From: a virus
Strand: one strand, 5' to 3'
Virus record (IMG/VR): IMGVR_UViG_3300046535_000869
Coordinates: 1 to 64,000 of that record
Length of the DNA stretch: 64,000 bases
A program made the translations under genes and the position numbers. The notes beneath the pieces are model-generated. The model made no database searches. It saw only the letters and a program-made list of their open reading frames with translations, and was not told the DNA's origin. Positions 23,155-59,967 of this stretch are shown here, one piece after another. The number at the start of each line of letters is the position of its first letter. The first letter of the stretch is position 1.

Positions 23155-24278
23155 GCGCCGACTCCCGCGCGCGCCCGCGCGAACCGCTCCACCACGTCCG
23201 AACACTCCTCGTCCGAGATGGCCAGGTTCGGCCGGAGCCTGACCGTCCGATCTCCTGTCGGGAGCATGATGGTCGACTCCTCGTGCCACATGGCCAGGAC
23301 GAAGGCGTCCCGGACGACCTTGGACTCGAAGTCCATCGCCAGGAGGAGGCCGACGTTCCGCGCCCCGATGGCCGTCGCCAGCTCCTTGCCCTTACGCTTG
23401 ACGTTCGCCAGGATGTCGTACCGGTCGTACGCGCCGAGGATGGCCCGGCAGCGGATCATGTCCAGAAGGTCGCCGTCCCAGGTCGCCTCCAGGTGGTCCG
23501 GCGTCTCGAAGATGGCCCCGAACTTATCCGCGACCATCACGCCAGAGACCTGAGCCTTCTTCCCGAAGCAGACGATGTCCGGCGCGAAGCCGAGCTGCTC
23601 GAAGTACCACATGGTCCCGGTCCCGCCGAACCCGGTCTGAATCTCGTCGAATATCAGCGGAATCCCGGTCCGCGTGCAGAACCGCCGCGCGTCCGCCAGG
23701 AAGGCCCGGTCGACGACCCGGTCGCCAGCCGTGCATTGGATAGGCTCGATGATGACCGCCGCCAGGTCCATCGGCCAGTCGGCCGTCTGCCGCCCGCCTT
23801 GGCAGTAGAAGTCCGCCTGCGGGTAGTCCTTCGTCCGGCTCCAGGCAGGCCCGCCGGGAGCCGCCAGCATCCCAGCGACGCCGCTGATGCCGTGATAACT
23901 GTCGGCGAGTACGAGTATGCGCCGACGTTTAGTCGCCGCCTGCGCGACCTTGATGGCCGCGTCGACCGCGCTTGCCCCGGTCGTCGTGTAGTGGAAGAAC
24001 GTGAACGCCGACATGGCCGGGTGCAGCTCGAACGCCCGCGCGAAGCGTTCCGCCGAGTCCGTCGCCATCTCGCAGTTGGTAATCTTCACGCCCGCGTGAC
24101 GAAGGACCTCCGCGTGGAAGGTGTCGTTGTCGAAGGCCGGATGGTTGTAGCCCAGCGGGAGTGACGAGTACAGGCCGAACAGGTCCAGGACCTCCCGACC
24201 GGTATTCAGGTCGTAGAGGTAGGAACCGTGGCTCCGCGCCACGTCAATCTTGATGCCAAACTTGGAGGTCCTGTGCAT
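23151..24278 (-). CDS. PLP-dependent class-III aminotransferase (lysine 6-aminotransferase-like)
   Basis: The 375-residue protein has class-III aminotransferase motifs: HYTTTGASAVDAAIKVAQ, DSYHGISGVAGML, the PLP Asp in IFDEIQTGFGGTGTMW, and the Lys Schiff-base candidate in VCFGKKAQVSGVM near residue 240. The FGKKxQVxGVM form resembles L-lysine 6-transaminases more than glutamate-semialdehyde enzymes. It is slightly shorter than usual members of about 430. In this setting it could aminate a keto-sugar intermediate or an amino-acid substituent for a glycan; that is inference. Confidence 0.85.
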   Translation of the reverse strand: MHRTSKFGIKIDVARSHGSYLYDLNTGREVLDLFGLYSSLPLGYNHPAFDNDTFHAEVLRHAGVKITNCEMATDSAERFARAFELHPAMSAFTFFHYTTTGASAVDAAIKVAQAATKRRRILVLADSYHGISGVAGMLAAPGGPAWSRTKDYPQADFYCQGGRQTADWPMDLAAVIIEPIQCTAGDRVVDRAFLADARRFCTRTGIPLIFDEIQTGFGGTGTMWYFEQLGFAPDIVCFGKKAQVSGVMVADKFGAIFETPDHLEATWDGDLLDMIRCRAILGAYDRYDILANVKRKGKELATAIGARNVGLLLAMDFESKVVRDAFVLAMWHEESTIMLPTGDRTVRLRPNLAISDEECSDVVERFARARAGVGA

Positions 24279-24279
24279 C

Positions 24280-25371
24280 TCAGTCCCGGTAAATGTGCTC
24301 GACGCCGTCCCGGCTCACGGCCAGCCGTGAGGCCCGGCCCTTCCCGGCCGCTGTGATCTGATGCCACTTGCCGCGCTCGATGAAGACCAGGTCGCCCTTC
24401 TTGACCGTCCGGGTCTGGTCCTCGATGGCGAACTTGTACTCGCCCTCCAGGATGAACCACCACTCGTCCCAGTCGGCGTGGTAGTGCCGCCGGTTCCCCT
24501 CGCCAGGGAGCTGACTGATGATGGTCGCGCTGTTCGACGGCGACTGGACGACCCGCCAGCCGAAGGACTGCCCCGCCGGGAACCGCTTCAGCAGCTCCGG
24601 GATGTTGACCAGCGGAACCGAGCCAGCCAGGTCGTTGGCCGACACGCCGTCGTCGTCCAGGACCTTCCCGGCATCGCACTGTGAGAACGCTGTGGACGTC
24701 CAGTACCGAGGCTTGACCGCGCCCGCGCGCCGCCGCGCGAGGACCAGCTCTGCGTCCTGAAAGTCCTGCTCGGTGTCGATGTCGATGGCCGCGTCGCCAG
24801 ACAGCCGGAGCCGCCGGACCCGCGACCCGAACCCATAGCTCCCGCATTTCTCGAAGGCCCCTCGCCGCCAGCCGAAGATGCCGTTGCAGAAGATCTCGAC
24901 CGGCTCCAGCTTCTGGCTGGGCAGCATCGGGAGCGCCGGGTCGAAGTTGATAGCCGTCTCGCCGAGCATCGTCTCTGCCTGGACCGCCCTCACCGAGACC
25001 ACCACGTCCGCGTCGTCCAGCGCCAGGACGGCTGCGCGCATGTCCTGCGCCGACAGGAACGGCGAGGTCGGCGTGATCTGGAACAGCCGGTTGACCTCCG
25101 GCATCGCCGCCAGGAAGTCCGCGACAAAGTGGTCGGTTGTGGCCTTGTCTCCAGCCAGCTCCGCCGACCGCCGGTAGCTGCTCGCGCCCAGCTCCTCGCC
25201 GAGGTTGAGAATCTCGTCGCTCTCGGAGTTGACGTAGACCTTATCGAACAGCCCGGACTCCCGCGCCGTCTCGACGACCCAGGCCAGGAGAGGCTTGCCG
25301 CCGAGGAAGCGGAGGTTCTTCCGAGGCACGCGCGTGCTGTGCAGGCGGGCCGGAATCATCGCGACCTTCAT
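24280..25371 (-). CDS. CMP-sugar synthetase (NeuA/KdsB-like) fused to a cupin
   Basis: The 363-residue protein begins MKVAMIPARLHSTRVPRKNL, the acylneuraminate cytidylyltransferase nucleotide-binding motif (IPARxxSxRxPxKNL), with QITPTSPFLSAQDM further on as in NeuA enzymes. Residues about 230-345 form a cupin: GWRVVQSPSNSATI, HYHADWDEWWFILEGEYKF with the metal-binding HxH...E, and GDLVFIERGKWHQI. The cupin resembles sugar-modifying or sensor cupins. Such a fusion would activate a keto-deoxy sugar (nonulosonate or Kdo-like) as its CMP form. Substrate not determined. Confidence 0.85.
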   Translation of the reverse strand: MKVAMIPARLHSTRVPRKNLRFLGGKPLLAWVVETARESGLFDKVYVNSESDEILNLGEELGASSYRRSAELAGDKATTDHFVADFLAAMPEVNRLFQITPTSPFLSAQDMRAAVLALDDADVVVSVRAVQAETMLGETAINFDPALPMLPSQKLEPVEIFCNGIFGWRRGAFEKCGSYGFGSRVRRLRLSGDAAIDIDTEQDFQDAELVLARRRAGAVKPRYWTSTAFSQCDAGKVLDDDGVSANDLAGSVPLVNIPELLKRFPAGQSFGWRVVQSPSNSATIISQLPGEGNRRHYHADWDEWWFILEGEYKFAIEDQTRTVKKGDLVFIERGKWHQITAAGKGRASRLAVSRDGVEHIYRD

Positions 25372-25877
25372 CGCGGTCTCCAGAGGACCATCGTGTCCTG
25401 CCGGAACATGACCGGAATCGGCTCAGGCTGCTCGCTCAGGAAGGTGAGCATCGCCAGCGTGACCTTGTCGAAGCTGGTCATCATGTCGTGGCAGACGAGC
25501 GCGTACTTGGTCAGCCGCCAGGCGTTGCGGAGGTCGACGAGCGCCTCGTCGTAGCCGTGATGGCCGTCGACATAGGACAGGTCGACCGGCGCGGTCTCGG
25601 CGGGTATCAGCGACTGCGACGGCCCGTCGAGGAACCGGACCTTCCCGCGATGCCCAGCTTTCTCCAGCAGCTCGACGATGTGTCTGTGGCTCCCGCGCCC
25701 CAGCCCGCCGTGGATGGTTCCCCAGGTGTCACAAAGTGTCAGGTCGATCTCCGGGTTCGCCGCGACGACCGTCCGCACGCAACCGCCCTCGTTGACGCCG
25801 ATGCCAAGGTACGTCTTGGCGCGCGGAGCCAGCTCGTTGAGGATCTCCCAGGAGCAGTGAGAGGCGGGCCAGTTCAC
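25368..25877 (-). CDS. Class I SAM methyltransferase-like protein (CmcI/Methyltransf_24 type)
   Basis: The GTG start at 25877 gives 169 residues, with GTGA overlap. The N-terminal part shows a SAM-binding strand (TYLGIGVNEGGCVRTV) and the DLSYVDGHHGYDEALVDLRNAW motif, which matches the VDGxHxY motif of Methyltransf_24-type proteins. A sugar O-methyltransferase role is a guess from the island. Confidence 0.75.
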   Translation of the reverse strand: MNWPASHCSWEILNELAPRAKTYLGIGVNEGGCVRTVVAANPEIDLTLCDTWGTIHGGLGRGSHRHIVELLEKAGHRGKVRFLDGPSQSLIPAETAPVDLSYVDGHHGYDEALVDLRNAWRLTKYALVCHDMMTSFDKVTLAMLTFLSEQPEPIPVMFRQDTMVLWRPR

Positions 25878-26557
25878 GCCGCCCTCCACTTCTGGAGCGC
25901 GACCCAGCCGCCGAACTGCGCGCGCGCCAGGGACTCGTCGTCGAACAGGAAGCCCGCCGCCTCAAGGGCCGAGACTGTCTTGGCACGGTCCTCGCCAGGC
26001 GGGACTTGATGGAATTCGATGAACAGGTGCGTCGCCGAGGCCAGCGCGCCAGGCATCCCGCGTACGGCCGCGTCCTCCGCGCCCTCGATGTCCATCTTGA
26101 TGACATCCGCCCGCCGACCAGACAGCGCCAGGATGGTGTCGAGGCTCTCGCACTCGACCAGGACAGCGTGACCCGCACTGCCGTGTACGGCCCCAGCGAT
26201 GGACATGGACAGCCCAGGCTCCGGTTTGATGAGCCGCATCAGCCCGTCACCAGCGCCGACCGCGACGCAATGCAGGTCGACCCGCTTGTCGTTGAGGTAC
26301 AGCTCGGCCAGCATGTCAGCCCGCTCCCGCTCCGCCTCGATGGCGACGACTACTAGGGTCGGCTTCCCGAACTTCAGCGCCAGGGCCGTGTAGAACCCGT
26401 ACTCCGCGCCCGCGTCAACCACCACGTCGGCCGACCGGACCGCGTCAACGAACGCCTGTGAGTAGGGTTCCCACCGAACGTTGGCCTGCTCCGTCCCGAC
26501 CATTAGGTCATGGCAGATGTCCAGGGTCGCCTTCTGGCCGTAGGTCTTCTCGGTCAC
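25874..26557 (-). CDS. FkbM-family methyltransferase
   Basis: The 227-residue protein shows the FkbM pattern: VVVDAGAEYGFYTALALKFG (SAM motif I), VVAIEAERERADML, and DVIKMDIEGAEDAAVRG, the diagnostic KMDIEGAE motif, followed by FIEFH. FkbM enzymes methylate hydroxyls of sugars and polyketides. It overlaps both neighbours by 4 nt, so it belongs to the island operon. Confidence 0.9.
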   Translation of the reverse strand: MTEKTYGQKATLDICHDLMVGTEQANVRWEPYSQAFVDAVRSADVVVDAGAEYGFYTALALKFGKPTLVVVAIEAERERADMLAELYLNDKRVDLHCVAVGAGDGLMRLIKPEPGLSMSIAGAVHGSAGHAVLVECESLDTILALSGRRADVIKMDIEGAEDAAVRGMPGALASATHLFIEFHQVPPGEDRAKTVSALEAAGFLFDDESLARAQFGGWVALQKWRAA

Positions 26558-27108
26558 TTGACCATCTCCGGCATGAAGGAACAGTAGAGCCAGTGGAACA
26601 TCATCATCGCCACGTCCTCGGCGACCGCGTTGCTGTCGGTCTCCAGGTCGATGGTGATGTCCGCCTTCTCCGAGACCGGCCCGCGCTTGCCGACAACCGC
26701 CGCGACGTGCATATTCAGGAACTTCGCGCGCGCGACCGCCTTGGTCAGGTTGGCTGACTTCCCGGACCCGCTGAAGACCACCAGGAGGTCGCCCGGCTCG
26801 CCGAGGGTGTCGAGCTGGGCCGCGAACATATTGTCCGCGCCGAAGTCGTTGACCGCTGAGGACAGCATGAACCCGCTGTTCAAGGAGACCGCCCGCATGC
26901 CAGCGCCAGCCTCGCGCAGCACGTTCAGCGACAGGCCGAGCGCCAGGTGGTCAGTGACCGTGCCGCCGCCGCCGTTGGCCGCTGTGTAGATGGTCCCGCC
27001 ATTGTCGTTGACCCGCTGCACCAGGAGCCGGAGCGCTTCGGCCCGCTCGAACGGGAGCTTCGCCGCCTTCTGGGCAACCGCGTCGACGTACGACCAGCAC
27101 GTCTTCAC
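26554..27108 (-). CDS. SIS-domain sugar isomerase (GmhA-like)
   Basis: The GTG start at 27108 gives 184 residues. It matches phosphoheptose isomerase-like SIS proteins: GGTIYTAANGGGGTVTDHLALGL, a Ser-rich phosphosugar motif (LLVVFSGSGKSANLTKAV), and DITIDLETDSNAVAEDVAMMMFHWL at the C-terminus, typical of GmhA/DiaA. Aldo-keto isomerisation of a sugar phosphate is expected. This fits a route towards a deoxy or heptose-type sugar with the neighbouring genes. Confidence 0.85.
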   Translation of the reverse strand: MKTCWSYVDAVAQKAAKLPFERAEALRLLVQRVNDNGGTIYTAANGGGGTVTDHLALGLSLNVLREAGAGMRAVSLNSGFMLSSAVNDFGADNMFAAQLDTLGEPGDLLVVFSGSGKSANLTKAVARAKFLNMHVAAVVGKRGPVSEKADITIDLETDSNAVAEDVAMMMFHWLYCSFMPEMVK

Positions 27109-27662
27109 GGCTTCCTCCAGGCCCCGATGCCGCCCCAGTCGCCCCTGACGGTCCACTCCAGCTTCTCGCCAGCCAGGCCCGCCCAGTACGCCGGGACGCC
27201 GCCCTTCTCCCAGACCTCGAACGCGCTCGCCGCCGCGTTGATGTCGTGGAAGACGATCCAGCCGCCGGACCGTACCAGCTTCCCGTAGTCGTCCACGTCC
27301 GCCGTGACGCCGTCGAGGCTGTGGTCGCCGTCGATGAACAGCATGTCAACCGGGTCGCCATCGAGCTGCTCGACCACCTTGAGCCAGGTCGCCTTGTGAT
27401 GGCTGTCGCCGGAGATACAGATGACGCCGACCAGGGCCGCGTTCCGCTTGGCGGTCTGGGCCTGGTTCATCCCGGTCGTCGAGCCTTCGATCTTGTCGAC
27501 CGTCACGGTCTTCCCGGACGCGATATTCGACAGGAGCTGCGTGACGCCGCCAGGCCCGGTCCCAATCTCCAGGATGGTCTTCGGCTTGACCTCCTCGGCC
27601 AGCCAGCGCGAGAACGGCTGGATCTCGTCCGGCCATTGGAGCATCGGCAGGGTGACCTTCAT
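27105..27662 (-). CDS. Class I SAM methyltransferase (Methyltransf_24 type)
   Basis: The 185-residue protein shows TILEIGTGPGGVTQLLSN (motif I), KTVTVDKIEG, VDMLFIDGDHSLDGVTADVDDYG with a FIDGDH motif, and WIVFHDI. These define Methyltransf_24 or cephalosporin hydroxylase-like methyltransferases. It overlaps the SIS gene by 4 nt. Probably a glycan O-methyltransferase. Confidence 0.85.
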   Translation of the reverse strand: MKVTLPMLQWPDEIQPFSRWLAEEVKPKTILEIGTGPGGVTQLLSNIASGKTVTVDKIEGSTTGMNQAQTAKRNAALVGVICISGDSHHKATWLKVVEQLDGDPVDMLFIDGDHSLDGVTADVDDYGKLVRSGGWIVFHDINAAASAFEVWEKGGVPAYWAGLAGEKLEWTVRGDWGGIGAWRKP

Positions 27663-28357
27663 GGCTTCACCGTCCGACGCTCAGCGTCCGACCAGGGAGC
27701 CAGCCGCCCGTCGCGAATCGGAGCCAGGGTCAGCTCAGGGTAGACCGCCTCCGGGAGGTTGAACGCCAGCATCCCGCCGGTCCCTGTGCCTGGATGGATA
27801 CTGTCGTACCTGGCCGCGACCGCCGCCCGCTCGGCCCGCGACTTGACGAGGAACTTGTGGTGCTCGATGAGGACCGGCGCTTCAGAGCCGCCGCCGAACG
27901 GCGATCCACAATGGATGCTCGTCCGCCCGCCCGCCATCGCCTTCACGCTCAGGCGCGTCTGGTGGTCCGGGAATAGCTGCGGCGACAGGATGACCCAGCC
28001 AGGCGTCTGCCAGAGGCTCGCGCGGGCGAACTTCCAGTGGTCTGCCGCGAAGTAGCGCTCCTCCGCCAGCCAGTCCGCCATCGCAGGCGAGGCTTTCTCG
28101 TCGTCGTCTAGCCGCAGGATGTACTTGCCGGAGCACTCCGCGACCGCGTAGTCGTGGACCGACTCCAGGTAGCCGTGTGACTGAACCGGGACGATCTTGC
28201 AGGGAAGCTGCCTGGCGAGGTCCTCGGCGTCTTGGCCGTCAGCCGCGATGACGAACTCAGCCCGGCAGCGCTCAGCCAGCGCCGACATGGCGCTGAGGAA
28301 CGGCCAGGCGTGTCGCTCGCCCTTGCTGACGCAGAGGATAGTGAGGTTCGGTTGCAT
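27659..28357 (-). CDS. Glycosyltransferase family 2-like
   Basis: The 232-residue protein reads LTILCVSKGERHAWPFLSAM at the start (GT2 strand 1), EFVIAADGQDAEDLARQL and KYILRLDDDEKASPAM, the DxD metal-binding motif of GT-A enzymes. It is the first gene of island 1 and follows a 98-nt spacer after the decoration gene. The start has a GGGGCAG leader similar to that of the chaperone gene. Confidence 0.8.
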   Translation of the reverse strand: MQPNLTILCVSKGERHAWPFLSAMSALAERCRAEFVIAADGQDAEDLARQLPCKIVPVQSHGYLESVHDYAVAECSGKYILRLDDDEKASPAMADWLAEERYFAADHWKFARASLWQTPGWVILSPQLFPDHQTRLSVKAMAGGRTSIHCGSPFGGGSEAPVLIEHHKFLVKSRAERAAVAARYDSIHPGTGTGGMLAFNLPEAVYPELTLAPIRDGRLAPWSDAERRTVKP

Positions 28358-28396
28358 CTGCCCCTGACGAACCGATGTGGTCCCGATGATAGAGAG

Positions 28397-28428
28397 AAGG
28401 CCCGACGACCTGGTTGCCGCCGGGCCTT
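28397..28428 (-). terminator. Stem-loop after the decoration-like gene
   Basis: An 8-bp stem (AAGGCCCG / CGGGCCTT) lies downstream of the decoration-like gene and is followed by CTCTCT on the minus strand. It lacks a T-tract, so termination would be weak. It resembles the stem-loops after the capsid and tail tube genes. Confidence 0.5.
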
Positions 28429-29049: not shown

Positions 29050-30270
29050 TTACTGCGCCCACTTCACGCCGGTCAGGTGCGCGATGGCCTCACGGTGCTG
29101 CGGAACCAGGTCGACCTCGTTGATCACGCGAAGCGCCGAGGCGTTCCGCTGATAAAGCGAGAAGACCGAGCCGTCCGACTGGACGATGGTTCCCTGGTCC
29201 GTCATGTCCACCTGAATCTGTGCGCCCTGGCCGAGCATCAGCTCGTCGCCGTCGTACAGGAAGATCAGGGACTCGTCCGCCCCGGTGCCGAGCGTGCTCG
29301 GAATCTGGGTTGACGAATCGAACGGGAAGCCCCACAGGGTTCCCTTGGACATCTCCGGTGCGAACACCTGGTTGCCGTTGCCGTCGCGCGCGGTGAACAG
29401 ATAGATCTTCGTGCGCGGTGACATCGCCCAGGCCCCGCCCGTCATCGGGACGTTGCCGTTCTCCATCGCGAGGAGCAGCCGACCCAGGTCGCCGGTCACT
29501 TCGGCCAGCTTCTGTGCGTCGGTCCCGGTGAAGGTCGTCGAGGCCAGGCGGTTCGCCGATGGCGTCCAGTACTGGAGGCCCTTCGGACGGTGCGCCGAAC
29601 CCGGCGACGTCAGGAACACGGAGTCCTCGCCGATGGCCAGCGCGCGCAGCGTGCTGTTGCGAACGATCTGCGCGACGCGCGGCCCGCCCCGACGGAGGAA
29701 CGTGTTGGAGAACGGCACGAGCGCCTTCTCCTGGTGCGCGCGCATGATGATCTGGTCGGTGCTGGGCTGAGAATCGCGAATCTCCTCAACCTCTCCGCCC
29801 CAGCTCACCGCCGCGTCAGCCGTGACGCGCGGCATGTCGACCTGTCCGGCCGAGATGTCGATGGTCGCCTTCACGCGCCGACGGACAACCGTCATGGGTG
29901 CGAGAAGGTCAATCACCTGTTGGCTCTGCTCCGGCGCGAAGAACACGCCGCCAGCGTCCGCGACGCCCGACTCCAGGGCCTTCGTCACGAAGTCCTTCTG
30001 GTTGTCGGGAATCATCGACCCGGCCTTCTTCACGTTGTCGATGGCGATGTCCTTGCTGCCCTTCGCGCCCTGGAGCGCGATGGCGATGTAGCCGAGCATC
30101 AGCCCGCGCTGTTCGGCTTCGTAGGCGCGGTCGACTTCGTTCCCGGCGAGCTGTGCGGCCTTCTCGGACACGCCCAGGTCCGCCCGGCGCTCGTGCATCG
30201 TCTTGAGCGCTTCGGCGACGACCTCGCCTGCGGTGTTGCGTACGAGATCTGTCAATTCCTTCGTGTTCAT
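29050..30270 (-). CDS. Major capsid protein, HK97 fold
   Basis: The 406-residue protein has an N-terminal helical segment of about 110 residues that could act as a scaffold (delta) domain, followed by HK97-type sequence: GGVFFAPEQSQQVIDLLAPMTVVRRR, TDAAVSWGGEVEEIRDSQPSTDQI (spine helix and E-loop region), LFTARDGNGNQV and a C-terminal LYQRNASALRVINEVD. Such delta domains are removed by the prohead protease encoded just upstream. It starts with ATGA overlap on the 39-residue ORF and has a good GGCAGGAGCC leader. A stem-loop follows. Confidence 0.92.
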   Translation of the reverse strand: MNTKELTDLVRNTAGEVVAEALKTMHERRADLGVSEKAAQLAGNEVDRAYEAEQRGLMLGYIAIALQGAKGSKDIAIDNVKKAGSMIPDNQKDFVTKALESGVADAGGVFFAPEQSQQVIDLLAPMTVVRRRVKATIDISAGQVDMPRVTADAAVSWGGEVEEIRDSQPSTDQIIMRAHQEKALVPFSNTFLRRGGPRVAQIVRNSTLRALAIGEDSVFLTSPGSAHRPKGLQYWTPSANRLASTTFTGTDAQKLAEVTGDLGRLLLAMENGNVPMTGGAWAMSPRTKIYLFTARDGNGNQVFAPEMSKGTLWGFPFDSSTQIPSTLGTGADESLIFLYDGDELMLGQGAQIQVDMTDQGTIVQSDGSVFSLYQRNASALRVINEVDLVPQHREAIAHLTGVKWAQ

Positions 30271-30400: not shown

Positions 30401-33400
30401 CTAGTCGACTCGTCCGGTGACGAGCATGAGCTGTTCGCTGATCGCCGCCTTCAGCGCCGACCGAATCAGGTCGGGCGAGATGGCTAGATCAATGTCCTTC
30501 TCTTCGTCGAGCACTAGAACCTGCTCGTTGTCGTCCAGCGCGCGCCCCATCGTGATGGGTAGCGGGTCGGCCGGGCCGTCCGTGGCTGGCGGAATCACTT
30601 CCGCTGGCGCTTCGGTTGCGGTTTGTAGTGTCGCCAGCACTTCGTCGAGGAGCGCCGTCGCATTGCGAATGCGCTGCTCGTTGGCAGACGACAAGACCCG
30701 GCCAGCCTTCAGCACTTGGACCGCCTCGTCCAGGTCGGCGAGCGCGACCGAAATGGCCGCTTTCGTCTCCGTGGTCGCCCGACGGTCGCCAGCGCAGAGT
30801 GACAACGTCCGGTGCTTCAACATCAGCGAAGCCTCGGTATGAGATTTGCCTTGCGGTCCGAACCGCTTGGAGACCCAGCTCGCCGCGCGATAGCGGGAAC
30901 CGGTCGCCTGGACCGACGTGATGAGGTCCCGCTGGTCGGCCAGCTTCGTCAGGGCCGCGTCGAGCGCCGCCGTCAGCGCCAGGCCGTCCTGCTCCTGGAT
31001 GATGCTCGCGAAGCGGCACAGCTCCCGGACATGCGCGCCGGAGTAGCCAGCCGTGGCGTCGACCGCCTTGATGGTGTCGACCGCGTCGAGGCCCGGTAGC
31101 CAGCGCGCCAGCATCTGCTTGCGTGCGACGTCATCCGGGAGGTCGAACTTCAGGACATCGTGGAACCGGCCCGGCCGGTCAATCAGCGCCTTCGGGAGCA
31201 GCTCCGGGTAGTTCGTGGTCAGGATGGTGACGACGCCCTTGGTCTGGCGAATGCCGTCCATCTCGGACTTGAGCATGTCGACCGTGTAGCCATCCAGCCA
31301 GTTGTCCACGTCCTCGACGAAGATGATGCTTGGAGCCAGCTCCCGCGCCATCTCGAAGGCGTGTACCATCCCGCCGAACGCGCCCATCCGGGCGAAGTCC
31401 CTGGCCGCGACCCAGATGAACGTCGACTTGGAGTTGTTCAGGAGCAGCCGACCGGTCAGGGTCTTCCCGGTTCCGGGAGGCCCGACCACCATTAGCCCGC
31501 GATTGTCGAAGTCCGCGCCCTTCTCTTCGATGAGCGTCGCGACACGCTTGATGGCCTTGGCGTTCTCCGGCGCGAGGAAGACCTCGTCGAAGCCCTCCGA
31601 GCCGCGCTCCAGGAACTCGCCAGAGATGTTGAACGCCTCGCCCTTGAGGTACTTGAGGCCAGCCGCGCGCTCCTGTACGTCCGAAACGAACCGTTCCATC
31701 GCGCCCTTCTTGTCGCGCTCGATGTAGGTCGTCACGTCCAGGCCGTACCAGGCAGGCGTCACGCGGAGGCACATCTTGATGCCGTGGAACTCCTCGTGCT
31801 CCCAGGTCAGGAAGCGCATCCCGTCGACCAGGAAGTCCTGCTCGATCTTGGAGTTGAGGCGAATCATCTCCCACGTCGGCGGAACTTCCTTGCCGTCCCA
31901 GTCGGTGTTGCGAATGTCCTCGACGTCGCAATCGACGAGCTGCTCGTCCAGCGACTTCAGGAAGCTGCCCATGCGGGCCGAGGCAACCTGGAAGCGGGAC
32001 TCGCTCAGAGCCTTCACGTCGCAGTCGATGAACCGCGCCGCCAGGGCCTGCTCGATGTCGCCCGCCGGAATCTGCTCGCGGGTCACGTCGAACGCTTTAC
32101 TCAGGCTCTTGTTCCAGCGGACCGGGTCCACGTCCTCGACACGCGCGAAGACCTTGGCTACCCGATCTTCGGCAGACTCTATTGAGGCTGCGCCAGGACC
32201 GGCGTTGATGGCGTCGGAGTCGTCCAGGATGCTCTGCGCGCTGGACGCGATGACCGCGACCTGCTCGGCGATGGTCTGGCAGACGCTCAGGACGCCGTTC
32301 ATCACGCGGTTCTCGTTGGCTTCCTCGGCGTCCTCGGCCGGGTTCGGCGTCGGCTCAACCTGCTCGACCGCCAGGAGGCCAGCGACATCAGACGCCGCCT
32401 GCTCCAGCACGTCCGAGGCGTCGCTGAGCATGGAGGCCATCGTCTGGAAGGCCGCGCGCTCCTCGGCGTCGTCGGCGTCGTCCGGGACCGGCGTCGGCCC
32501 GACCGGCGACATTGGCACGACACCAGCCGCCGCGCTGACGTCCAGCGGGCTGTCCTTGGCCTCGACGACGACCGGCTCGATGACCGGCTCGGCAGACGCC
32601 TCGATGGCGATGGGCTGGCCGTCCAGGAGGATCTGCTCGTCCAGCTCGTCCGTCACGCGCGCGTGAGTTTCCGGGAGCGCCTCGGCCGTTGCCTTGGCCT
32701 CCGGGATTGTTTCACGTGGAACACTGGTCTTGGCGACCTTCAGCTCGGACAGGACCGAGAAGACCTTCCGGCCGGTCGGGTCCGCCTGCGCGCGAAGGGT
32801 CTCGACCTGCTTCCGGGTCAGAATCGACTCGCCGCGCTTCATCAGGTCCAGGGTCTTCTCGGCCCAGGCTTTCAATGGCGCGACGTCGATGCCCTTGGAC
32901 CGGGCGATGACCAGCGCCTCTGGATGGGCTGGAACCGGGCAGATCGAATGTTCGAGCAGGCCCTGCTTCAGGAAGTTGACGCCCGTCTCGGACATCTCCC
33001 ACTCGGTCGGGAGGAACCCGACGGAGCAGGCGTTCAGGAAGCCGCCCTGGATCATGCGGTACACGGTGTCCGCGAACGGGTACACATCCGGCCCGATGAA
33101 CTGGTCGGTCGCCCGGAGCATGGAGCCGTCGTTGATCGTCTCCAGCGCGCGGCCGACTGGCAGCGCGCCGTGGTCGTGCGCCCAGAGGACGACCGGGTTG
33201 GTCTTGTAGTCCTTGAGGTCCCAGCCCTTCACGGCCAGGCTGTCGCCCTCCCGGTCCAGGTTGGCGTTCGACAGGACGAACGGAATCGTCCGGCTCTCCG
33301 GGTCCGCCTTCATGGCCGACAGGTCGACCAGGCCAGACTTGAAGACCACGTACGGTGCGAGGTCGTCGCCCGATGCGCCCTTCTTGACCAGGGCCTTCCA

Positions 33401-33430
33401 GTCAGCAGCCGTGATGAGCGTGCGGTCCAT
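30401..33430 (-). CDS. Prohead protease fused to AAA+ ATPase
   Basis: One 1009-residue frame, started at the ATG at 33430, preceded by AGGAG 12 nt upstream; a TTG start at 33481 would add 17 residues. Residues about 45-185 form an HK97-type prohead protease (S78/U35): LSNANLDREGDSLAVKGWDL, the His in VVLWAHDH at 83-87, and the Ser in ACSVGFLP near 136. Residues 250-430 are an acidic, low-complexity linker. Residues 560-830 are a complete AAA+ module: Walker A GPPGTGKT (650-657), Walker B IIFVEDVDN (702-710), sensor 1 TILTTN (735-740), Arg finger LIDRPGRF (749-756) and sensor 2 GAHVRE. The last 180 residues are helical. It precedes the capsid gene. Prohead proteases are usually about 200-250 residues without an ATPase. 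The fusion is continuous with no sign of frameshift. Confidence 0.9.
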   Translation of the reverse strand: MDRTLITAADWKALVKKGASGDDLAPYVVFKSGLVDLSAMKADPESRTIPFVLSNANLDREGDSLAVKGWDLKDYKTNPVVLWAHDHGALPVGRALETINDGSMLRATDQFIGPDVYPFADTVYRMIQGGFLNACSVGFLPTEWEMSETGVNFLKQGLLEHSICPVPAHPEALVIARSKGIDVAPLKAWAEKTLDLMKRGESILTRKQVETLRAQADPTGRKVFSVLSELKVAKTSVPRETIPEAKATAEALPETHARVTDELDEQILLDGQPIAIEASAEPVIEPVVVEAKDSPLDVSAAAGVVPMSPVGPTPVPDDADDAEERAAFQTMASMLSDASDVLEQAASDVAGLLAVEQVEPTPNPAEDAEEANENRVMNGVLSVCQTIAEQVAVIASSAQSILDDSDAINAGPGAASIESAEDRVAKVFARVEDVDPVRWNKSLSKAFDVTREQIPAGDIEQALAARFIDCDVKALSESRFQVASARMGSFLKSLDEQLVDCDVEDIRNTDWDGKEVPPTWEMIRLNSKIEQDFLVDGMRFLTWEHEEFHGIKMCLRVTPAWYGLDVTTYIERDKKGAMERFVSDVQERAAGLKYLKGEAFNISGEFLERGSEGFDEVFLAPENAKAIKRVATLIEEKGADFDNRGLMVVGPPGTGKTLTGRLLLNNSKSTFIWVAARDFARMGAFGGMVHAFEMARELAPSIIFVEDVDNWLDGYTVDMLKSEMDGIRQTKGVVTILTTNYPELLPKALIDRPGRFHDVLKFDLPDDVARKQMLARWLPGLDAVDTIKAVDATAGYSGAHVRELCRFASIIQEQDGLALTAALDAALTKLADQRDLITSVQATGSRYRAASWVSKRFGPQGKSHTEASLMLKHRTLSLCAGDRRATTETKAAISVALADLDEAVQVLKAGRVLSSANEQRIRNATALLDEVLATLQTATEAPAEVIPPATDGPADPLPITMGRALDDNEQVLVLDEEKDIDLAISPDLIRSALKAAISEQLMLVTGRVD

Positions 33431-35766: not shown

Positions 35767-38700
35767 TTAGTCCAGGAGGGACAGGTCGCCGCCCGCCAGG
35801 AGGATCTTGTCCTCCAGCTCCCGCCGCTGCCGGTGAACCAGGAGGATGTCCAGCGTCCTGGCCCGGCCCGCCGCCAGGGAGCCGCCCTTCCCGACCGAGG
35901 CCCAGCTTCGCGACGCCTTCGCCTGCCCGCCCGCGACGATGCCGCCTTTCGTGGTCACGCTGGCGAACGCGCGCGCGCTGACCGCCTTCCCGGTGCTGGT
36001 CGCCCCGCCGCGCCCGATGATCGCGAAGGACCAGGACATCGACGTCGGAGCCGACCCAGCCGAGACGCCGCCGCCCGATCCGACGTAGCCGTAGGTTACC
36101 GGCTTGGGCTTCGGCGGGATGGCAAGGTTGCCGCCTTCCCACTCGACGAACGCGCCGCCGATCCAGCGCCCGCGCTCCGGCATGAGCGCGCCGCCGTCGG
36201 TCAGGACGCCCGCTGTCAGGACTTTGGGCTTGCGCCGCGCGTGCCGCCCGAAGGTCGGGTAGCCGTTCCCGGACCCGTACGCGCCGCCGGTCCCGACGTA
36301 GTCGAACTCCACCGAGGATGACGGGCTGGCGCTGACGGAGGACGACGGAGAGACCGAGGCCGACGGCGAGCGCGACGCCGAGGGGCTGACAGACGGCGAG
36401 GCCGAGGCGCTCGGCGACCTGGAAGCGCTGGGCGAGACCGATGGACTCTGTGAGGCGCTGGGCGACCGGGACGGCGACGCCGACGCGCTGGCGCTACTCG
36501 ACGGGCTGACCGACGGACTGACCGAGGCGGACGGCGACTTCGACGCGGACGGGCTGACCGAGGGACTGGCGCTCGCCGACGGCGACGTGCTGGCCGAGGG
36601 GCTAACGCTGGGACTCGCGCTCGCGGACGGTGACCGGGAGGCGCTCGGCGAGACTGACGGACTCTGGCTGGCCGAGGGAGAGACCGACGCCGAAGGACTG
36701 ACAGACGCGCTCGCGCTCGCGGACGGCGAGACGCTGGCCGACGGCGACACGGACGGCGACTGGCTCGCGGACGGCGATGTGCTCGCCGAGGGAGAGACGC
36801 TCGGACTGGCGCTGGCGCTCGGCGACCTGGAGGCGGACGGGCTGACGCTAGGCGACGCCGACGCCGACGGTGAAATGCTCGGTGAGCCAGCCGACGGCGA
36901 CAGGGAACTCGACGGCGACAGGGAGCTGCTCGGAGAGACCGAGGCCGAAGCACTCGATGACGGGCTGACGCTGGCCGACGGAGAGACGGAGGCTGACGGG
37001 CTGACCGACGGCGATTGGCTCGCGGACGGACTGACCGACGGCGACTGCGAGGCTGAGGGGCTGACCGACGCGCTGGGCGAGACAGAGGCCGACGGCGACA
37101 CGGACGCGCTCGGCGAGACGCTGGCGCTGGGCGAGACGCTGGCTGACGGCGAGACCGAGGGACTGGCCGATGCGGACGGCGAGACCGAGGGACTCTCAGA
37201 CGCCGACGGGCTGACACTGGCGCTCGGACTGACCGAGGCCGATGGACTCACGGAAGCCGACGCGCTCGCGCTGGGACTGACACTCGCAGACGGCGAGATG
37301 CTCGGCGACTGGCTGGCCGACGGGCTAACCGAGGCCGATGGAGAGACGCTTGGCGACTCTGACGCGGACGGAGAAACCGAAGCACTCGGCGAGACCGAGG
37401 GGCTGGCGCTCGCGCTCGGACTGACCGACGCAGACGGCGACACGCTCGGCGACGCCGATGCGGACGGCGACACGGAGGCCGACGGGCTGACACTCGCCGA
37501 CGGACTGATGCTGGGCGACGCGCTCGCACTCGGCGACACGCTGGCCGATGGCGAGACCGACGGTGATTGCGAGGCGCTCGGTGAGACGCTGGCCGAAGGA
37601 CTGACCGACGCGCTCGGACTGACCGACGGAGACGCCGAGGCGCTGGGCGAGACGCTCGCGCTGGGGCTGACCGATGGACTCTGCGATGCGCTCGGCGAAA
37701 CCGACGCCGACGGAGAGACAGACGCAGAAGGCGAGACACTCGCGCTGGCCGAGGCCGACGGCGAGACGCTCGCGCTCGGCGAGACCGACGGCGACTGTGA
37801 CGCCGACGGGCTAACGCTCGCCGAAGGACTGACGCTCGGACTCTGACTGGCCGAGGGTGAGACGCTCGCGCTGGGCGACACGCTCGCGCTCGGACTGACC
37901 GACGGACTCGCTGACGCGCTCGGACTGACGCTCGGCGATTGTGAAGCAGACGGAGAGACCGACGCCGAGGGGCTAATGCTGGCGCTCGGCGAAATCGACG
38001 GAGACTGACTCGCGCTCGGCGAGACGCTTGGACTCTGCGATGCTGACGGGCTAACCGATGCGCTTGGCGAGACGCTCGCTGATGGCGAGACCGATGGCGA
38101 CGCCGACGCCGACGGCGAGACAGACGCGCTGGGGCTAACACTGGGTGACTGTGACGCGGACGGCGAGACGCTCGCGCTCGGAGACTTCGAGGCGCTGGGC
38201 GACACGCTCGGCGATTGCGAGGCAGACGGAGAGACCGACGGCGACTGACTCGCCGAGGGACTAACCGACGCCGACGGCGACACAGAAGCAGACGGACTGA
38301 CCGACGCCGACGGCGAGACCGACGGACTCGATGAGGCTGACGGGCTAACGCTCGGCGACTGCGAGGCTGAGGGGCTGACCGACGCGCTGGGCGAGACGCT
38401 GGCGCTGGGGCTGACAGACGGCGACGCCGACGCCGAGGGACTGACGCTCGCCGACGGCGAGATGCTGGGCGACTGTGAGGCCGATGGCGACACGCTGGCG
38501 GACGGCGACTTCGACGCCGACGGCGAGACAGACGGACTCTGTGACGCTGATGGACTAACGCTGGCCGACGGGCTGACGCTCGGCGACTGACTCGCGCTGG
38601 GGCTGACACTCGCGCTGGGCGACACGCTCGGAGAGGCCGACGCCGACGGCGAGACCGACGCAGACGGGCTAACCGATGGAGAGGCGCTCGCGCTTGGCGA

Positions 38701-39996
38701 GACGCTCGCCGACGGACTGATGCTCGGAGAAGCGCTGGCGCTTGGCGACTTCGACGCTGAAGGCGAGACCGACGGCGACGCGCTCGCTGAGGGAGAGACC
38801 GACGCGGACGGGCTGACAGAGGCACTCGCTGACGCCGACGGAGAGACGCTCGGCGACTCGGCCTTGTTGAACGCCGTGACCTCGGTCGTGTTCAGGATCG
38901 CGACAGCCGCCTGCACGTCCACCGTCTCGATGGCGTGGCTGAGCGACGCCGACGGACTCACGCTCGCCGACGGTGACTTCGAGGCGCTCGGACTGACGCT
39001 CGCGCTGGGCGACTTCGACGGCGACGATGACGCCGACGGCGAGACGCTTGGACTCTGCGAGGCGGACGGTGAGACGGACGCGCTCGGCGAAACGCTGGCG
39101 CTTGGAGACTTCGAGGCCGACGGGCTGACGCTCGCACTCGGAGAGACACTCGGACTTTGTGAGGCCGATGGGCTGACAGATGGCGACTGGCTGGCGCTGG
39201 GGCTGACCGACGCGCTTGGACTGACGCTCGCCGAAGGGCTGACCGACGCTGAAGGCGAGACCGACGCCGACGGCGATAGCGACGATGACCCGGTACTGCT
39301 CTCGACCAGCGCGACGAAGATGTGGTTCGAGTCGCCAGTGATCGCCGTGACCGACGGGTTGCTCGTTTCCCCGGTCGACGTGTTGATCCTGAACTCCGAC
39401 CAGCAGCTCACCGCGTTCGCGTTGTTCCTCGACCGCGTCGTCGCGCCAGTCGTGAAGTTGGTCGAGACCGTCAGCGCGGTGCCGCTGCCGTTGGCTTCCT
39501 TGCCCAGCGCCGAGAAGTACAGGCGTGAGAGACTCGCCAAGCTGCTGAAGGCCGTCGAGCCGAAGCCCGCGTTCGCCGCGATGTTGTTGAACTGACTGGT
39601 CGCGCCATGCACCAGCGAGCTGCCCGCCGCGACCGTGAACTTCCAGCCGACCATGACCTTGTCGGAGCTGGACGGAGCAACCGTCGCCGTGAAGACCGTG
39701 CCGATGGCGTTCGTGCCAGACGAGACGAACCGCCAGAGCGACGTGCAGACGCCGTCCGAGGCCGCGCCGGTCGGGCTGTAGGTGTACTCCTCCAGCTTCG
39801 TCCATGTCCCGGTGCCGCCAGTGATGGACGTGTGGTCGTTCGTCGTGCCGGTCGTGGTCGAGTTGTTGTCGGTGGTGATGACGACGAGCGCGATGTCGCC
39901 TGACGCCGACAGGGCGTTCGTCGTCGTGGTCAGCGTGATCGCCGTCGCGCCGCTGACGCCGTTGACGCCGAGTGTGCCGACGGAGGTGATCGCCAT
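35767..39996 (-). CDS. Giant Ser-rich repeat (SPSAS) virion-type protein
   Basis: The 1409-residue protein has three parts. Residues 1-238 are a beta-rich globular domain ([13 protein letters not shown] ... [10 protein letters not shown]) like fibre or adhesin heads. Residues about 239-1228 are nearly continuous Ser-Pro-Ser-Ala-Ser/Val units, with one non-repeat insert ([19 protein letters not shown], near residues 352-380). Residues 1229-1409 hold a Gly-rich domain with repeats of GxGGxxxxGxA type ([30 protein letters not shown]) and end in a basic helix. Such Ser/Pro stalks are usually extended and often O-glycosylated; adjacency to island 2 supports but does not prove that. It probably forms a fibre. 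Confidence 0.8.
36313..39282 (-). repeat. Large SPSAS tandem repeat block
   Basis: About 990 codons of Ser-Pro-Ser-Ala-Ser/Val-type units, with variants containing Gln, Lys, Arg, Leu and Thr. The nucleotide sequence is diverged between units, though protein periodicity is strict, which suggests selection on the protein. The opposite strand of this repeat gives long spurious open frames. Repeat copy number should be treated with caution, because assemblers can collapse or expand such tracts. Confidence 0.9.
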
Positions 39997-49368: not shown

Positions 49369-49773
49369 TTAGGGTTTGTTCTCGAAGCTGAAGGTCGGTG
49401 TGACCTTGACCTCGTCGTCTGTGTGCGCGATGTTGTACGGCCCATCGTCGAACCGCTCGACCCAGACCAGGTCGCCCGCCGCCGACGTGACGTAGTAGCC
49501 GTAGGCCGGTCCAGCCGCCCCGGTGAACAGGAAGCTCTGCCGCGCGTAGGTCGCCAGGCTCGGCTCGCCGACCGCGACGCCCCACGCGCCAGCCGGGAGC
49601 GTCTTCGCCGCGTAGCCGCCGCCCGCCATCTCGACCAGGTTATCCAGCCGCGTCGCGACCGACGGTGTGTAGTCGTTGGCGTACAGGTGCAGCGTGAACG
49701 GCGAGAGGCTCGACGTGTTCAAGATGGCGTTGAGGATGTCGGCCGATGCCGCCGACGGAATAACCAGCGTCAT
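49369..49773 (-). CDS. Small virion-type structural protein
   Basis: The 134-residue protein starts 4 nt inside the portal-MuF end. It reads FTLHLYANDYTPSVATRLDNLVEMAGGGYAAKTL and ends with acidic strands (VWVERFDDGPYNIAHTDDEVKV). This pattern, LYxNDxTP with a later GGGY, is common in small phage proteins encoded near head or tail genes. Exact role unknown. Confidence 0.65.
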   Translation of the reverse strand: MTLVIPSAASADILNAILNTSSLSPFTLHLYANDYTPSVATRLDNLVEMAGGGYAAKTLPAGAWGVAVGEPSLATYARQSFLFTGAAGPAYGYYVTSAAGDLVWVERFDDGPYNIAHTDDEVKVTPTFSFENKP

Positions 49774-52166
49774 ACGGCCTCGTCCTTATCTGTGTGAATC
49801 TTCGCAATCAGCCCGCGCTCGTCCCGCTCGACGGTCTGGGTTACCCGACCTGCCGTGAGCTGCTTGGGTGCCTTCGGCGCTTCGACGGTGATGTGAATCT
49901 CCGGCAGGCCCTTCGACATCTGCCGCCTCAGCTCCGCCTTGACGGCCCGCTCTTGGGTACGGAAGGCCGATCCCAGCTTGGTCTTCAGAAGCCGGACGTA
50001 CGCCATCCGCTCGGCGTCCAGGGCCTTCCAGCGCGACTTCCGAAGCATCCCCGCCAGCTCGCCGCCCGCCTCGTCGCCGCCGCCGCGCGCGAGAGGCGTG
50101 ATGACCGTGCAGCGACAGTTACAGTCGTCCTCTGGCCCGCCCATCTCGCCAGGGTACGGCCCGCTGTTCCCGGAGGTCTCAGACTCGAAGTCATCGTCGA
50201 CCGCCTGGACCTGGCCGTCCATCTCGACATGGCTGGCCGACTCGGTATTCCGAACCCTGTCATCTTGAGTGGACAACCACTCTTTTTCCTCGAATCCTGC
50301 TTGCGACATGCCCTCCAGCGCCCCGAAGTTGGAGGACCGGGTGATCTCGGTCGTCGCAATCAGGTCGGCCCGGAACTCGTCCGCCAGGTCGAAGACCTCG
50401 GTGATCCGGTCCGAGATGTCGTCGAAGGTCTCGCCCTCCTCCAGGCCGTCAGCGATAGCGTTGGCGATGTCTTCCTTGGTCGACTCGTTGATCATGCCGG
50501 TGACGCGGTCCGCGCCCCAGCTCCGCATGTGGTTGATGACGTTCGGGTCGGACAGGTCGAACGGGTTCTCAATGGCCGCGTCGGTCAGGACTTGCTGCCC
50601 GAAGTGGCCGATGACCGACCGGATGACCGGACGCCCGGCCCGGATGATGACCTGCGCGTCGGCCGCGTTGGCGATCTCGTGCGGGTCCGGCCCATCCGCT
50701 TTCTCACGCGCGCGTGAGACTTTCGCGACCCGACCCTTGAGCCGCTTCGGCGGAACTGCGTCGCCACTGGTCGTCGCCGCAGGCGGGAGCGCGGAGTCCG
50801 GCTCAGGCTGAGGCGTGCCAGGGTCCGGCTTCGGGTTGAACGCCTCGGCCGTGAACGACGTGACCGGCGTCAGGTTGAACGGGACCATGTGAACCTTGCC
50901 CCGGTTGTTCGGGAGAGGCTCACGCCCAGCGAAGCCGCGCCACTCGTCCAGGTCGAACGCTTCCGGCTTGGCCTGCCAGACCTTGAGGATGAACTCGCGG
51001 TCCTCCTGGACCGGGTTCACGTAGTCGATGACCAGGCGCTCGTCGAACAACGGCATCAGGGTCTCCTGCATCTGCGCCCGGAGGAACTCCGCGCGAGGCA
51101 CAATGACCCTGGACTGGTAGATGAAGTCGGCCGACTCGATGGTCGACCGGTTGCTGTTCTCGATGACGCCCGCGATCTCTGGCGGGATGCCCAGCGTTTG
51201 CAGGATGTTATCCCGCTGTTGCTTGCGAATCTCGCCGAACTGTTGCTGCTCGAAGCTGGGACTGAGCTGGTGGACGTCGACCTTCGCGCCGAGGAAGGCA
51301 GGCATCCAGCCCGCGCCGACCCGCTGGAACTTCGACAGCCACTTCTCCTCGACCCGCTGCAGCTCCGACAAGCCGAGGCCCAGGCCCGCGATAAGGACCG
51401 GCGGAACCGCCCGATTACGGAAGAAATCCTTGATGTACTTGGCCGCGTATTCGTCCGTCTCCAGCTCGTCGGCGAGGACCTGGGCGATGCCAGTGCCACG
51501 GCTGAACGGGTTGGCGGGCGACGGATGGTACGCCCAGAACATGTTCGGTTTCGGCACGTCCCATGTGCCGCCAGGCCCGACGATGCGGTAGAAGCCGCCG
51601 GTCGAGGCCGGGAGCGCCGTAATCCAGGTCGGCGGAATCGGGAGCGCCTTGACCGGCATCCGGTACTGGTTCAGCTCCAGCAGCCAGGAGGTCTCGCCAA
51701 CCAGGTCCAGATGGGTCTGGGCGAGCTGCATCGAGACCAGGCCAGGGAAGTACTCGTTCCCGGCCGTCAGGAGGTCGATGACCGGATGGTTGGGTAACTC
51801 GCGCAGCTTGCCAGCTTTGATGTACTGGCTCATCAGCTCGGCGCGAACCTTGCTTGATGCGCGCTGCAGCCGCTTGTCGCGGAACGCCTTGCCAGGCTGG
51901 AGCGAGGTACCCGGATCTAGGGTAGGCACGTAAACGTGCCAGGTGAGGCCCGCGACATCCTCAGAGATTTTCTGGAGGAAGGACCGGAGCCAGGGCATCG
52001 TGTCGTACGCCCGGAGCATGCCGTCCGTGCCGAGGCGCGGAGCCGTCGACCAGGACGGCCAGACGGAGCCGCCGATGCCGCCTGTCCCAGCGAAGATCTT
52101 GGACGCCGCGCTGCTCACCAGCGACGCAGCTCGACCGAGGATGGACGGAGTGTTTCGCCTGGACAA
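49770..52166 (-). CDS. Portal protein fused to MuF-type head morphogenesis domain
   Basis: The 798-residue protein begins with a TTG at 52166; upstream is AAGG, and no better start was found. The portal part covers about residues 1-470: DTMPWLRSFLQKISEDVAGL, KYIKDFFRNRAVPPVLI, NILQTLGIPPEIAGVIENSNRSTIESADF and IVDYVNPVQEDREF-type strands. A Pro-rich linker (470-520) leads to a MuF/SPP1 gp7-like domain: ATTEITRSSNFGALEGMSQ, WLSTQDDRVRNTESASHVEMDGQ, YPGEMGGPEDDCNCRC. Portal-MuF fusions are known in some phages. It forms the head vertex and may carry DNA-ejected protein. An inverted repeat spans the start. Confidence 0.9.
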   Translation of the reverse strand: MSRRNTPSILGRAASLVSSAASKIFAGTGGIGGSVWPSWSTAPRLGTDGMLRAYDTMPWLRSFLQKISEDVAGLTWHVYVPTLDPGTSLQPGKAFRDKRLQRASSKVRAELMSQYIKAGKLRELPNHPVIDLLTAGNEYFPGLVSMQLAQTHLDLVGETSWLLELNQYRMPVKALPIPPTWITALPASTGGFYRIVGPGGTWDVPKPNMFWAYHPSPANPFSRGTGIAQVLADELETDEYAAKYIKDFFRNRAVPPVLIAGLGLGLSELQRVEEKWLSKFQRVGAGWMPAFLGAKVDVHQLSPSFEQQQFGEIRKQQRDNILQTLGIPPEIAGVIENSNRSTIESADFIYQSRVIVPRAEFLRAQMQETLMPLFDERLVIDYVNPVQEDREFILKVWQAKPEAFDLDEWRGFAGREPLPNNRGKVHMVPFNLTPVTSFTAEAFNPKPDPGTPQPEPDSALPPAATTSGDAVPPKRLKGRVAKVSRAREKADGPDPHEIANAADAQVIIRAGRPVIRSVIGHFGQQVLTDAAIENPFDLSDPNVINHMRSWGADRVTGMINESTKEDIANAIADGLEEGETFDDISDRITEVFDLADEFRADLIATTEITRSSNFGALEGMSQAGFEEKEWLSTQDDRVRNTESASHVEMDGQVQAVDDDFESETSGNSGPYPGEMGGPEDDCNCRCTVITPLARGGGDEAGGELAGMLRKSRWKALDAERMAYVRLLKTKLGSAFRTQERAVKAELRRQMSKGLPEIHITVEAPKAPKQLTAGRVTQTVERDERGLIAKIHTDKDEAV

Positions 52167-58752: not shown

Positions 58753-59967
58753 TTAGTAGAAGATCGGGAATGGCGCGCCGAACTCCAGGCTCGCCCGCGA
58801 CCCAGACGTGAACGCCGAGCGCGCCAGCGCCAGCGCGCAGACCGCGTCATCGTGCAGCCCGGACGGAGCCGAGTATCGCACGCCGGTCCGCGTCGACTCG
58901 AACTCGAATGCCTCCAGCTCGTCGACGATGACGCCCTCCGGGAATCGAATGGCCCGCTGCTGAATCGCGAGCGCCAGGCCCTCCATGATCTGCTGCTTCG
59001 ACGATGCGCTGAACTTGAAGCCCTCGTATTTGCCAGACGGGTTGCGCCGCTGGATGGCCTCGACTACCGGGTCGCCGACGCCGGTCGAATCAATCAGCGC
59101 GCGCGCGGTCCCAGTCGCCTCCAAGATCGCCGCGACGGTTTCTCCCCACGGCTTCTGGAACCGCACGAACCGACACGCGCGCCCGTCCTCGTCGAGCGCG
59201 ATGCCGACCGTCCAGTCGAAGGACTTCGCCAAGTCCCAGCCCCAGACAACCGGAGGCTCGTCCGTCAGATTCCCGACGCAGGCGCGAATGGCCGAGAGGC
59301 CGAACGGGTTGCCCGCGTCGTCCGACGGCTCCGCCAGGTACAGCTCCCGGAAGACTGCCTCTGGAAGCTGCTGCCGCGCGTCCTCCACTTCCTCGGCCGA
59401 CAGGAAGCCCGCCAGGACCGCGTCGTGGCAGACGATCTTCGCGTATGACATGTTCGGCGCGTGACTCTGCGCCTTGCGCGCGATGTGGTACGCCCAGTTC
59501 CGCCGCCCCTTCACGTTGCCGATGATCCGAACGGGACCTTCCGTCGCCGTCAGCGTCGACCGGACCGCGTGCCAGGCTTCCTCCTTGACGCGCGTCGCCT
59601 CGTCGATGACCGCCGCGTAGACGTCGTCGCCGTACAGGGAGTCGGGATGGTCCGCGCCCTTGCACCAGATGATCGCGCCGTTCTTGAGGGTCAGCGTCAG
59701 CTCGGTCTCGTTGGCATGGTAGACGCGCCGAGGGAGCGCATGCTTCAGCCGCCGGAAGACCATCTTGGCCTGGTCGCGAATCGGCGAGACCCACCAGAAG
59801 TTCTGGTGCGCCTGCCCCATCATCGCTTGCTCGGTCAGCCAGACCATGCAGCCGGTCGTCTTCCCGACCTTGGTCGAGGCTTCGACGATGCCGTAGCGGG
59901 CATCGCCGAACAGGGCCGTCAGTTGGTAGTCGGCGAGTTTAGGACGTGTGTACGTCCACGCCGTCAT
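58753..59967 (-). CDS. terL: Terminase large subunit
   Basis: The 404-residue protein has the packaging ATPase and nuclease signatures: Walker A EASTKVGKTTG (residues about 29-39), Walker B VYAAVIDEATR (near 117-127), a coupling motif IIGNVKG, and nuclease Asp in VWGWDLAKSFDWTV, ALIDSTGVGD and GLHDDAVCALALA. The order matches TerL. The small subunit lies upstream with a 4-nt overlap. Confidence 0.95.
   Translation of the reverse strand: MTAWTYTRPKLADYQLTALFGDARYGIVEASTKVGKTTGCMVWLTEQAMMGQAHQNFWWVSPIRDQAKMVFRRLKHALPRRVYHANETELTLTLKNGAIIWCKGADHPDSLYGDDVYAAVIDEATRVKEEAWHAVRSTLTATEGPVRIIGNVKGRRNWAYHIARKAQSHAPNMSYAKIVCHDAVLAGFLSAEEVEDARQQLPEAVFRELYLAEPSDDAGNPFGLSAIRACVGNLTDEPPVVWGWDLAKSFDWTVGIALDEDGRACRFVRFQKPWGETVAAILEATGTARALIDSTGVGDPVVEAIQRRNPSGKYEGFKFSASSKQQIMEGLALAIQQRAIRFPEGVIVDELEAFEFESTRTGVRYSAPSGLHDDAVCALALARSAFTSGSRASLEFGAPFPIFY

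Follow-up and report, generated by a model that had tools for sequence, protein, structure and literature searches.

An S78 prohead protease fused to, or encoded beside, a YjoB/Bcs1-type AAA+ ATPase in the head-gene region of phages

The DNA analysed here (the window) comprises 64 000 nucleotides, positions 1 to 64 000 of a 102 082-base IMG/VR virus record (IMGVR_UViG_3300046535_000869). A gene on its minus strand, whose position had been given correctly in an earlier note made from the sequence alone, encodes in one frame of 1009 residues an S78 prohead protease, an acidic linker, an N-domain of the ATPase, an AAA+ core and a helical tail, in this order (Table 1). The plus strand over the same interval is full of stops when its frames are read. 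In the AlphaFold model of the full chain, the protease and the block formed by the N-domain and the AAA+ core were predicted with confidence; the linkers were disordered or helical. The gene is placed directly before the major capsid gene, as had been claimed, with 130 bp between the two. About 105 residues precede the HK97 fold of the capsid protein and resemble a delta domain.

Table 1. Positions in the window of the fusion gene, its parts and the head genes
Feature	Position	Strand	Basis or remark
HK97-fold major capsid protein gene	29050..30270	-	Pfam Phage_capsid PF05065, E 1.4e-29, match from residue 107
Protease-AAA+ fusion gene, 1009 aa, stop codon included	30401..33430	-	ATG at 33430, stop at 30401
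Helical tail, residues 846-1009	30404..30895	-	GRVLSxxN motif near residue 910
AAA+ core, residues 621-845	30896..31570	-	Pfam AAA; PDB sequence and fold matches
Sensor 1 N740 and arginine fingers R752, R755, residues 738-757	31160..31219	-	All conserved in 81/81
Walker B region, residues 702-709, E706-D707-x-D709	31304..31327	-	E, D and D conserved in 81/81
Walker A GPPGTGKT, residues 650-657	31460..31483	-	K656 and T657 conserved in 81/81
ATPase N-domain, residues 438-620, YjoB/Bcs1-like beta sheet and helices	31571..32119	-	Model pLDDT 89; fold match
Linker, residues 216-437	32120..32785	-	AlphaFold model
S78 (HK97 gp4-like) prohead protease domain, residues 46-180	32891..33295	-	Pfam S78, phrog_80, TIGR01543; pLDDT ~90
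Portal protein fused to Mu gpF-like domain	49770..52166	-	Pfam PF04860, E 2e-30; PF04233, E 1.2e-15
Terminase large subunit	58753..59967	-	Pfam PF03237 and PF17289

The portal gene lies 16 kb upstream of the fusion gene, past inserted genes, and the terminase gene farther upstream. Glycosyltransferases, a beta-helix protein and a repeat protein are encoded between portal and fusion gene (30-50 kb of the window), and a 1409-residue frame at 35767-39996 (minus strand) contains a very extended series of [11 protein letters not shown]-type repeats. The distance between portal and fusion gene is much shorter in most relatives than in the window. A capsid gene adjoins the fusion gene or lies near it in the majority of relatives, generally on the downstream side; portal genes are mostly found upstream. 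A sugar-modification cassette occupies 22000-28400 of the window (minus strand), with a class-III aminotransferase, a cytidylyltransferase-cupin fusion and a SIS isomerase; its neighbours are methyltransferase-like and glycosyltransferase-like by eye.

The protease domain was recognized by Pfam (Peptidase_S78, PF04586, residues 79-180, E 2.4e-5, 25 bits against a cut-off of 21), by PHROGs (head maturation protease phrog_80, E 3.9e-17) and by NCBIfam (TIGR01543, with a score under the family's own cut-off). The motifs LDREGD (57-62), WAHDH (83-87) and ACSVGF (134-139, all counted from the ATG) were found where the earlier note had placed them. In the family alignment, the catalytic residues H85, S136 and E160 are invariant (77/77, 78/78 and 78/78, respectively). 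The domain, the catalytic H/S/E residues and the location just ahead of the capsid gene are shared with HK97 gp4-type proteases (PF04586/TIGR01543). Known proteases of this type stand alone or are fused to scaffold or to capsid protein, and none was seen with an ATPase, unlike the fusion described here. Fusions to the major capsid protein (NCBIfam NF045541; phrog_617) are not mentioned in the earlier note.

In the AlphaFold model, the linker is acidic and disordered over residues 226-318 and helical over 319-408; no convincing family match was obtained for it. It possibly includes a scaffold-like segment. The GRVLSxxN motif of the tail was present in 51/95 sequences of the family, and the tail of the window protein has a weak match to phrog_3017, a family of head maturation proteases (E 0.015). 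Tail and helical linker together might thus, as a weak inference, act as a scaffold through which the machine enters the prohead.

The AAA+ core was matched by Pfam AAA over residues 647-763 (E 3.2e-19). The elements of a classical AAA ATPase, namely Walker A, Walker B, sensor 1 and two arginine fingers, were all found across 81 sequences. A complete AAA+ module had been proposed before; its Walker A, sensor 1 and arginine fingers were retained as described, and its Walker B is present but reads E-D-x-D, not D-E-x-D. Judged from the alignment, the catalytic residues of both protease and ATPase are retained across the family. Among PDB sequences, those of p97/Cdc48 and FtsH come nearest to the AAA core. 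In a tree of AAA sequences, the phage proteins formed one group (support 97/95) and FtsH and Cdc48 were set apart from the rest (100/100); the longest rows were placed uncertainly. The aromatic-Gly pore loop 1 of threading enzymes is not conserved in the phage family (position 685: L 19, F 17, V 14, I 7). An FtsH-type protein would combine an FtsH-clade AAA core, an aromatic pore loop and a zinc metalloprotease; these were not found here, and the protease is of the S78 serine type. Similarity to the defence ATPase IetA was weak and restricted to part of the AAA core, and this candidate was rejected.

The acidic linker had been noticed from the sequence; the N-domain that separates it from the AAA+ core, folded and about 180 residues long (438-620), had been missed. 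Its sequence had no match in Pfam, PHROGs or the PDB sequences, and the BCS1_N profile of Pfam did not match at E 1. When the N-domain alone was compared with PDB folds, Bcs1 was among the best matches (E 1.5e-3), besides helix-grip folds. The full model matched Bacillus subtilis YjoB (7w42) best (E 3e-18), followed by Bcs1 (E 4e-16 to 7e-13), over about 400 columns; the fold matches of FtsH and p97 mostly covered the core alone. TM-scores to YjoB and Bcs1 were moderate (about 0.4-0.5 by target length) with a large rmsd, so that the domain arrangement differs from that of YjoB and Bcs1 or is uncertain. In a library of viral structures, several proteins named BCS1 ranked high among the matches listed, and none of the 50 matches listed had a name or a length suggesting a fusion.

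Based on these models, the ATPase is called YjoB/Bcs1-type. Bcs1, the mitochondrial AAA+ translocase of the folded Rieske protein, resembles it in N-domain and AAA fold by structure search. The phage protein differs in having no BCS1_N sequence match, no N-terminal membrane helix (highest 19-residue hydropathy 1.36) and a fused protease; because the first two features are absent, it is not called Bcs1 proper. YjoB is stand-alone and cellular. So are six AAA+ proteins (L221-L226) that matched the N-domain profile in about 1560 prokaryote genomes sampled (E 5e-6 to 4e-12 in the genome search, down to 6e-15 on local re-scoring); neither YjoB nor these six were seen tied to phage heads. The six relatives come from genomes that had been sampled in the phyla of a Planctomycetota centre and of a Chloroflexi-type (Anaerolineae) one. 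The E-D form of Walker B is common to most of the cellular proteins matching the profile. No fused prophage was detected with this profile in the same genomes, the positive control recovering 10/10 viral records. The same N-domain is carried, for instance, by the stand-alone proteins at L223 1303-2649 and L224 808-2169 and by those of L221 and L222; the L223 copy adjoins a gene resembling a WYL-type regulator by eye. Gene 14 of Xanthomonas phage phiXF1, which is annotated as YjoB, was rejected as a relative: it has an AAA domain without the S78 protease and without the N-domain. This protein (L228 4746-8762, 1338 residues) has a divergent AAA at its C end, preceded by about 1100 residues without a Pfam match.

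Relatives of the ATPase part were found in at least 176 IMG/VR contigs. The alignment scans returned 176 and 179 relatives, of which 80 were kept per scan, and these counts are lower bounds. With the ATPase part as query, an IMG/VR scan had recovered 10 relatives, 43-68% identical; neither the whole protein nor the capsid protein gave a match, the peptide patterns probably being too specific. After removal of duplicates, 95 ATPase genes were retained, window included. The protease is N-terminal of the AAA+ part within one frame in 82 of them. The order AAA+-protease-capsid in one frame was observed in four (L002, L004, L006 and L014), and the protease is encoded by a touching gene in six, with the ATPase gene first in L011, L082, L170 and L172 and the protease gene first in L029 and L073. 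In the remaining three, the frame is ended by the contig end. An uninterrupted protease-AAA+ frame is thus far beyond chance. The idea that the fusion arose by chimeric assembly or a frame error, the objection raised in the earlier note itself, has a negligible probability: the split in L073 is perhaps a frame break and looks like one inside the protease end, but there is no such sign in the window, and an assembly join or frameshift is ruled out by the same fused order in 82 non-redundant sequences, at 25-65% identity to the window.

ATPase and protease were linked in 92/92 assessable non-redundant loci. Among controls, the protease or the N-domain was present in 0/15 unrelated viral AAA+ loci (among the matches listed from a distant viral scan with GPPGTGKT) and in 0/80 cellular FtsH/Cdc48 loci. 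A quick tree built from 92 sequences requires about seven changes of arrangement (well-supported branches force fewer), and the linkage was never lost; the nearest relative of the window is L002, with the order ATPase-protease-capsid. The window gene thus belongs to a conserved phage head-region family that pairs an S78 prohead protease with a YjoB/Bcs1-type AAA+ ATPase, either in one chain or through neighbouring genes. Since linkage was kept through rearrangement and order was not, this count argues for a working partnership of ATPase and protease.

The four AAA+-protease-capsid chains share protease and capsid protein in one chain with the known prohead protease/major capsid fusions, and differ from them by an AAA+ module of about 400 residues ahead of the protease. 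Frames of this order have an in-frame ATG at the start of the capsid part (L014 9810, L015 2897, L012 4619, L016 6008). A nested capsid product made from an internal start is possible, the ribosome-site evidence being weak. The separate proteases of L170 (9280-11238), L172 (6544-8481), L082 (4936-7230) and L011 (3891-5714) continue into a long second portion, which by eye is similar to Mu protease I and a scaffold tail. The longest fusion (L044 6642-12782) has 2046 residues, about 1170 of them after the AAA+ part.

The architecture appears undescribed, as the earlier note had supposed, within Pfam, PHROGs, NCBIfam, the PDB, INPHARED and the open-access literature. Three different queries against 50 697 phage records returned no fused relative, and no description of a protease-AAA+ fusion was found in the open-access literature searched. 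A survey of composite mobilome ATPases with protease domains does not use the word 'prohead' in its main text (PMC8297831). The nearest published idea is that stand-alone BCS1 and MoxR-vWA-metallopeptidase pairs aid virion assembly in jumbo phages (PMC7824862). There too, an AAA+ chaperone is proposed for assembly, in one case with a peptidase partner. BCS1 is stand-alone there, the peptidase is unrelated, and the relevant section makes no link to an S78 protease (PMC7824862).

We favour the reading that the fusion is an ATP-dependent remodeller of head proteins, physically coupled to maturation proteolysis, and give it a probability of about 0.5. The AAA+ parts would assemble as a ring on or in the prohead. 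The ring would spend ATP in remodelling folded head proteins, which may be the scaffold or delta domains, capsid-protein intermediates or the protease itself, and the attached protease would cut the substrates so presented at a few specific sites. The helical linker and the tail would carry the machine into the prohead as scaffold, and ATP, whose access within the prohead is assumed, would time or drive maturation. The Bcs1 heptamer encloses a large cavity that accepts a folded substrate, and its cycle is concerted, unlike that of threading AAA+ enzymes (PMC11143374, PMC12219900). Remodelling is favoured over processive unfolding or degradation because the pore loop is not conserved and because the protease may lie on either side of the ATPase or on another chain. 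The constant linkage, compared with the controls and maintained through rearrangement, and the four loci in which the capsid protein itself is fused also speak for the remodeller, as do the nearby capsid and portal genes, the retained catalytic residues, the YjoB/Bcs1 fold matches and the E-D Walker B shared with most cellular N-domain proteins. The moderate TM-scores, the missing Bcs1 membrane helix and the weak matches behind a scaffold role of tail and linker speak against it. Its more specific form is put forward tentatively: a Bcs1/YjoB-type ring motor in the prohead would remodel folded head proteins and hand them to its own protease, so that ATP drives or gates shell maturation in place of a downhill run after assembly.

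ATP-driven unfolding of scaffold, suggested in the earlier note, is possible but less favoured, given a threading motif that is not conserved, a YjoB/Bcs1-type fold and the folded state of the Bcs1 substrate (PMC11143374). Its fullest version, which we consider unlikely, is an FtsH-like AAA+ protease: the ring would thread scaffold or delta domains, unfold them and pass them to the attached protease. As in FtsH, Lon and similar enzymes, AAA+ and protease are on one chain, and FtsH is among the nearest PDB sequences to the core; the fold, however, is nearer to YjoB/Bcs1, the AAA clade and the protease family are different, and the tree and the pore loop both point away from FtsH. A protease that may come before the ATPase, after it or on a separate chain fits a coaxial chamber poorly, and prohead proteases cut at few sites.

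It is rather doubtful that the AAA+ part serves as an activation ring, gathering or aligning protease copies or ringing the portal vertex, with its ATP state gating self-activation and little mechanical work done elsewhere. Herpes-type assemblin proteases are activated by oligomerization, and such a role would agree with a linkage that tolerates both domain orders. However, the hydrolysis residues are fully conserved, which suggests ATP turnover, and the L002, L004, L006 and L014 chains would bring one ATPase per capsid subunit unless an internal start or a cleavage separates them. More improbable is an AAA+ passenger of the head, merely freed by the protease and acting elsewhere, either ejected with the DNA or as a chaperone on host processes. 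Phages are known to carry passengers released by the protease, and the weak likeness to IetA would suit such a role; but that likeness is confined to part of the AAA core, and the linkage to protease and capsid gene was kept despite repeated rearrangement.

In the usual view, prohead maturation drives itself, by a protease that becomes packaged, makes its cuts and then leaves. An energy-dependent step in capsid maturation would follow from a conserved ATPase that stays coupled to this protease, through repeated rearrangement, across at least 176 viral contigs from the environment, and the powering or timing of shell maturation by ATP was not found described for any phage. If the remodeller reading is true, Bcs1-type rings, so far known mainly for one mitochondrial substrate, would gain a viral role.

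The capsid protein of L011, one of the split-gene loci, is Mu gpT-like by eye, and the Mu gpT and Mu portal families each occurred once in a pooled scan of neighbour genes. From these Mu-like neighbours, the partnership of ATPase and protease may span more than one head type. Among the neighbour genes of the relatives, four encode intein splicing domains and one a TROVE/Ro60 protein.
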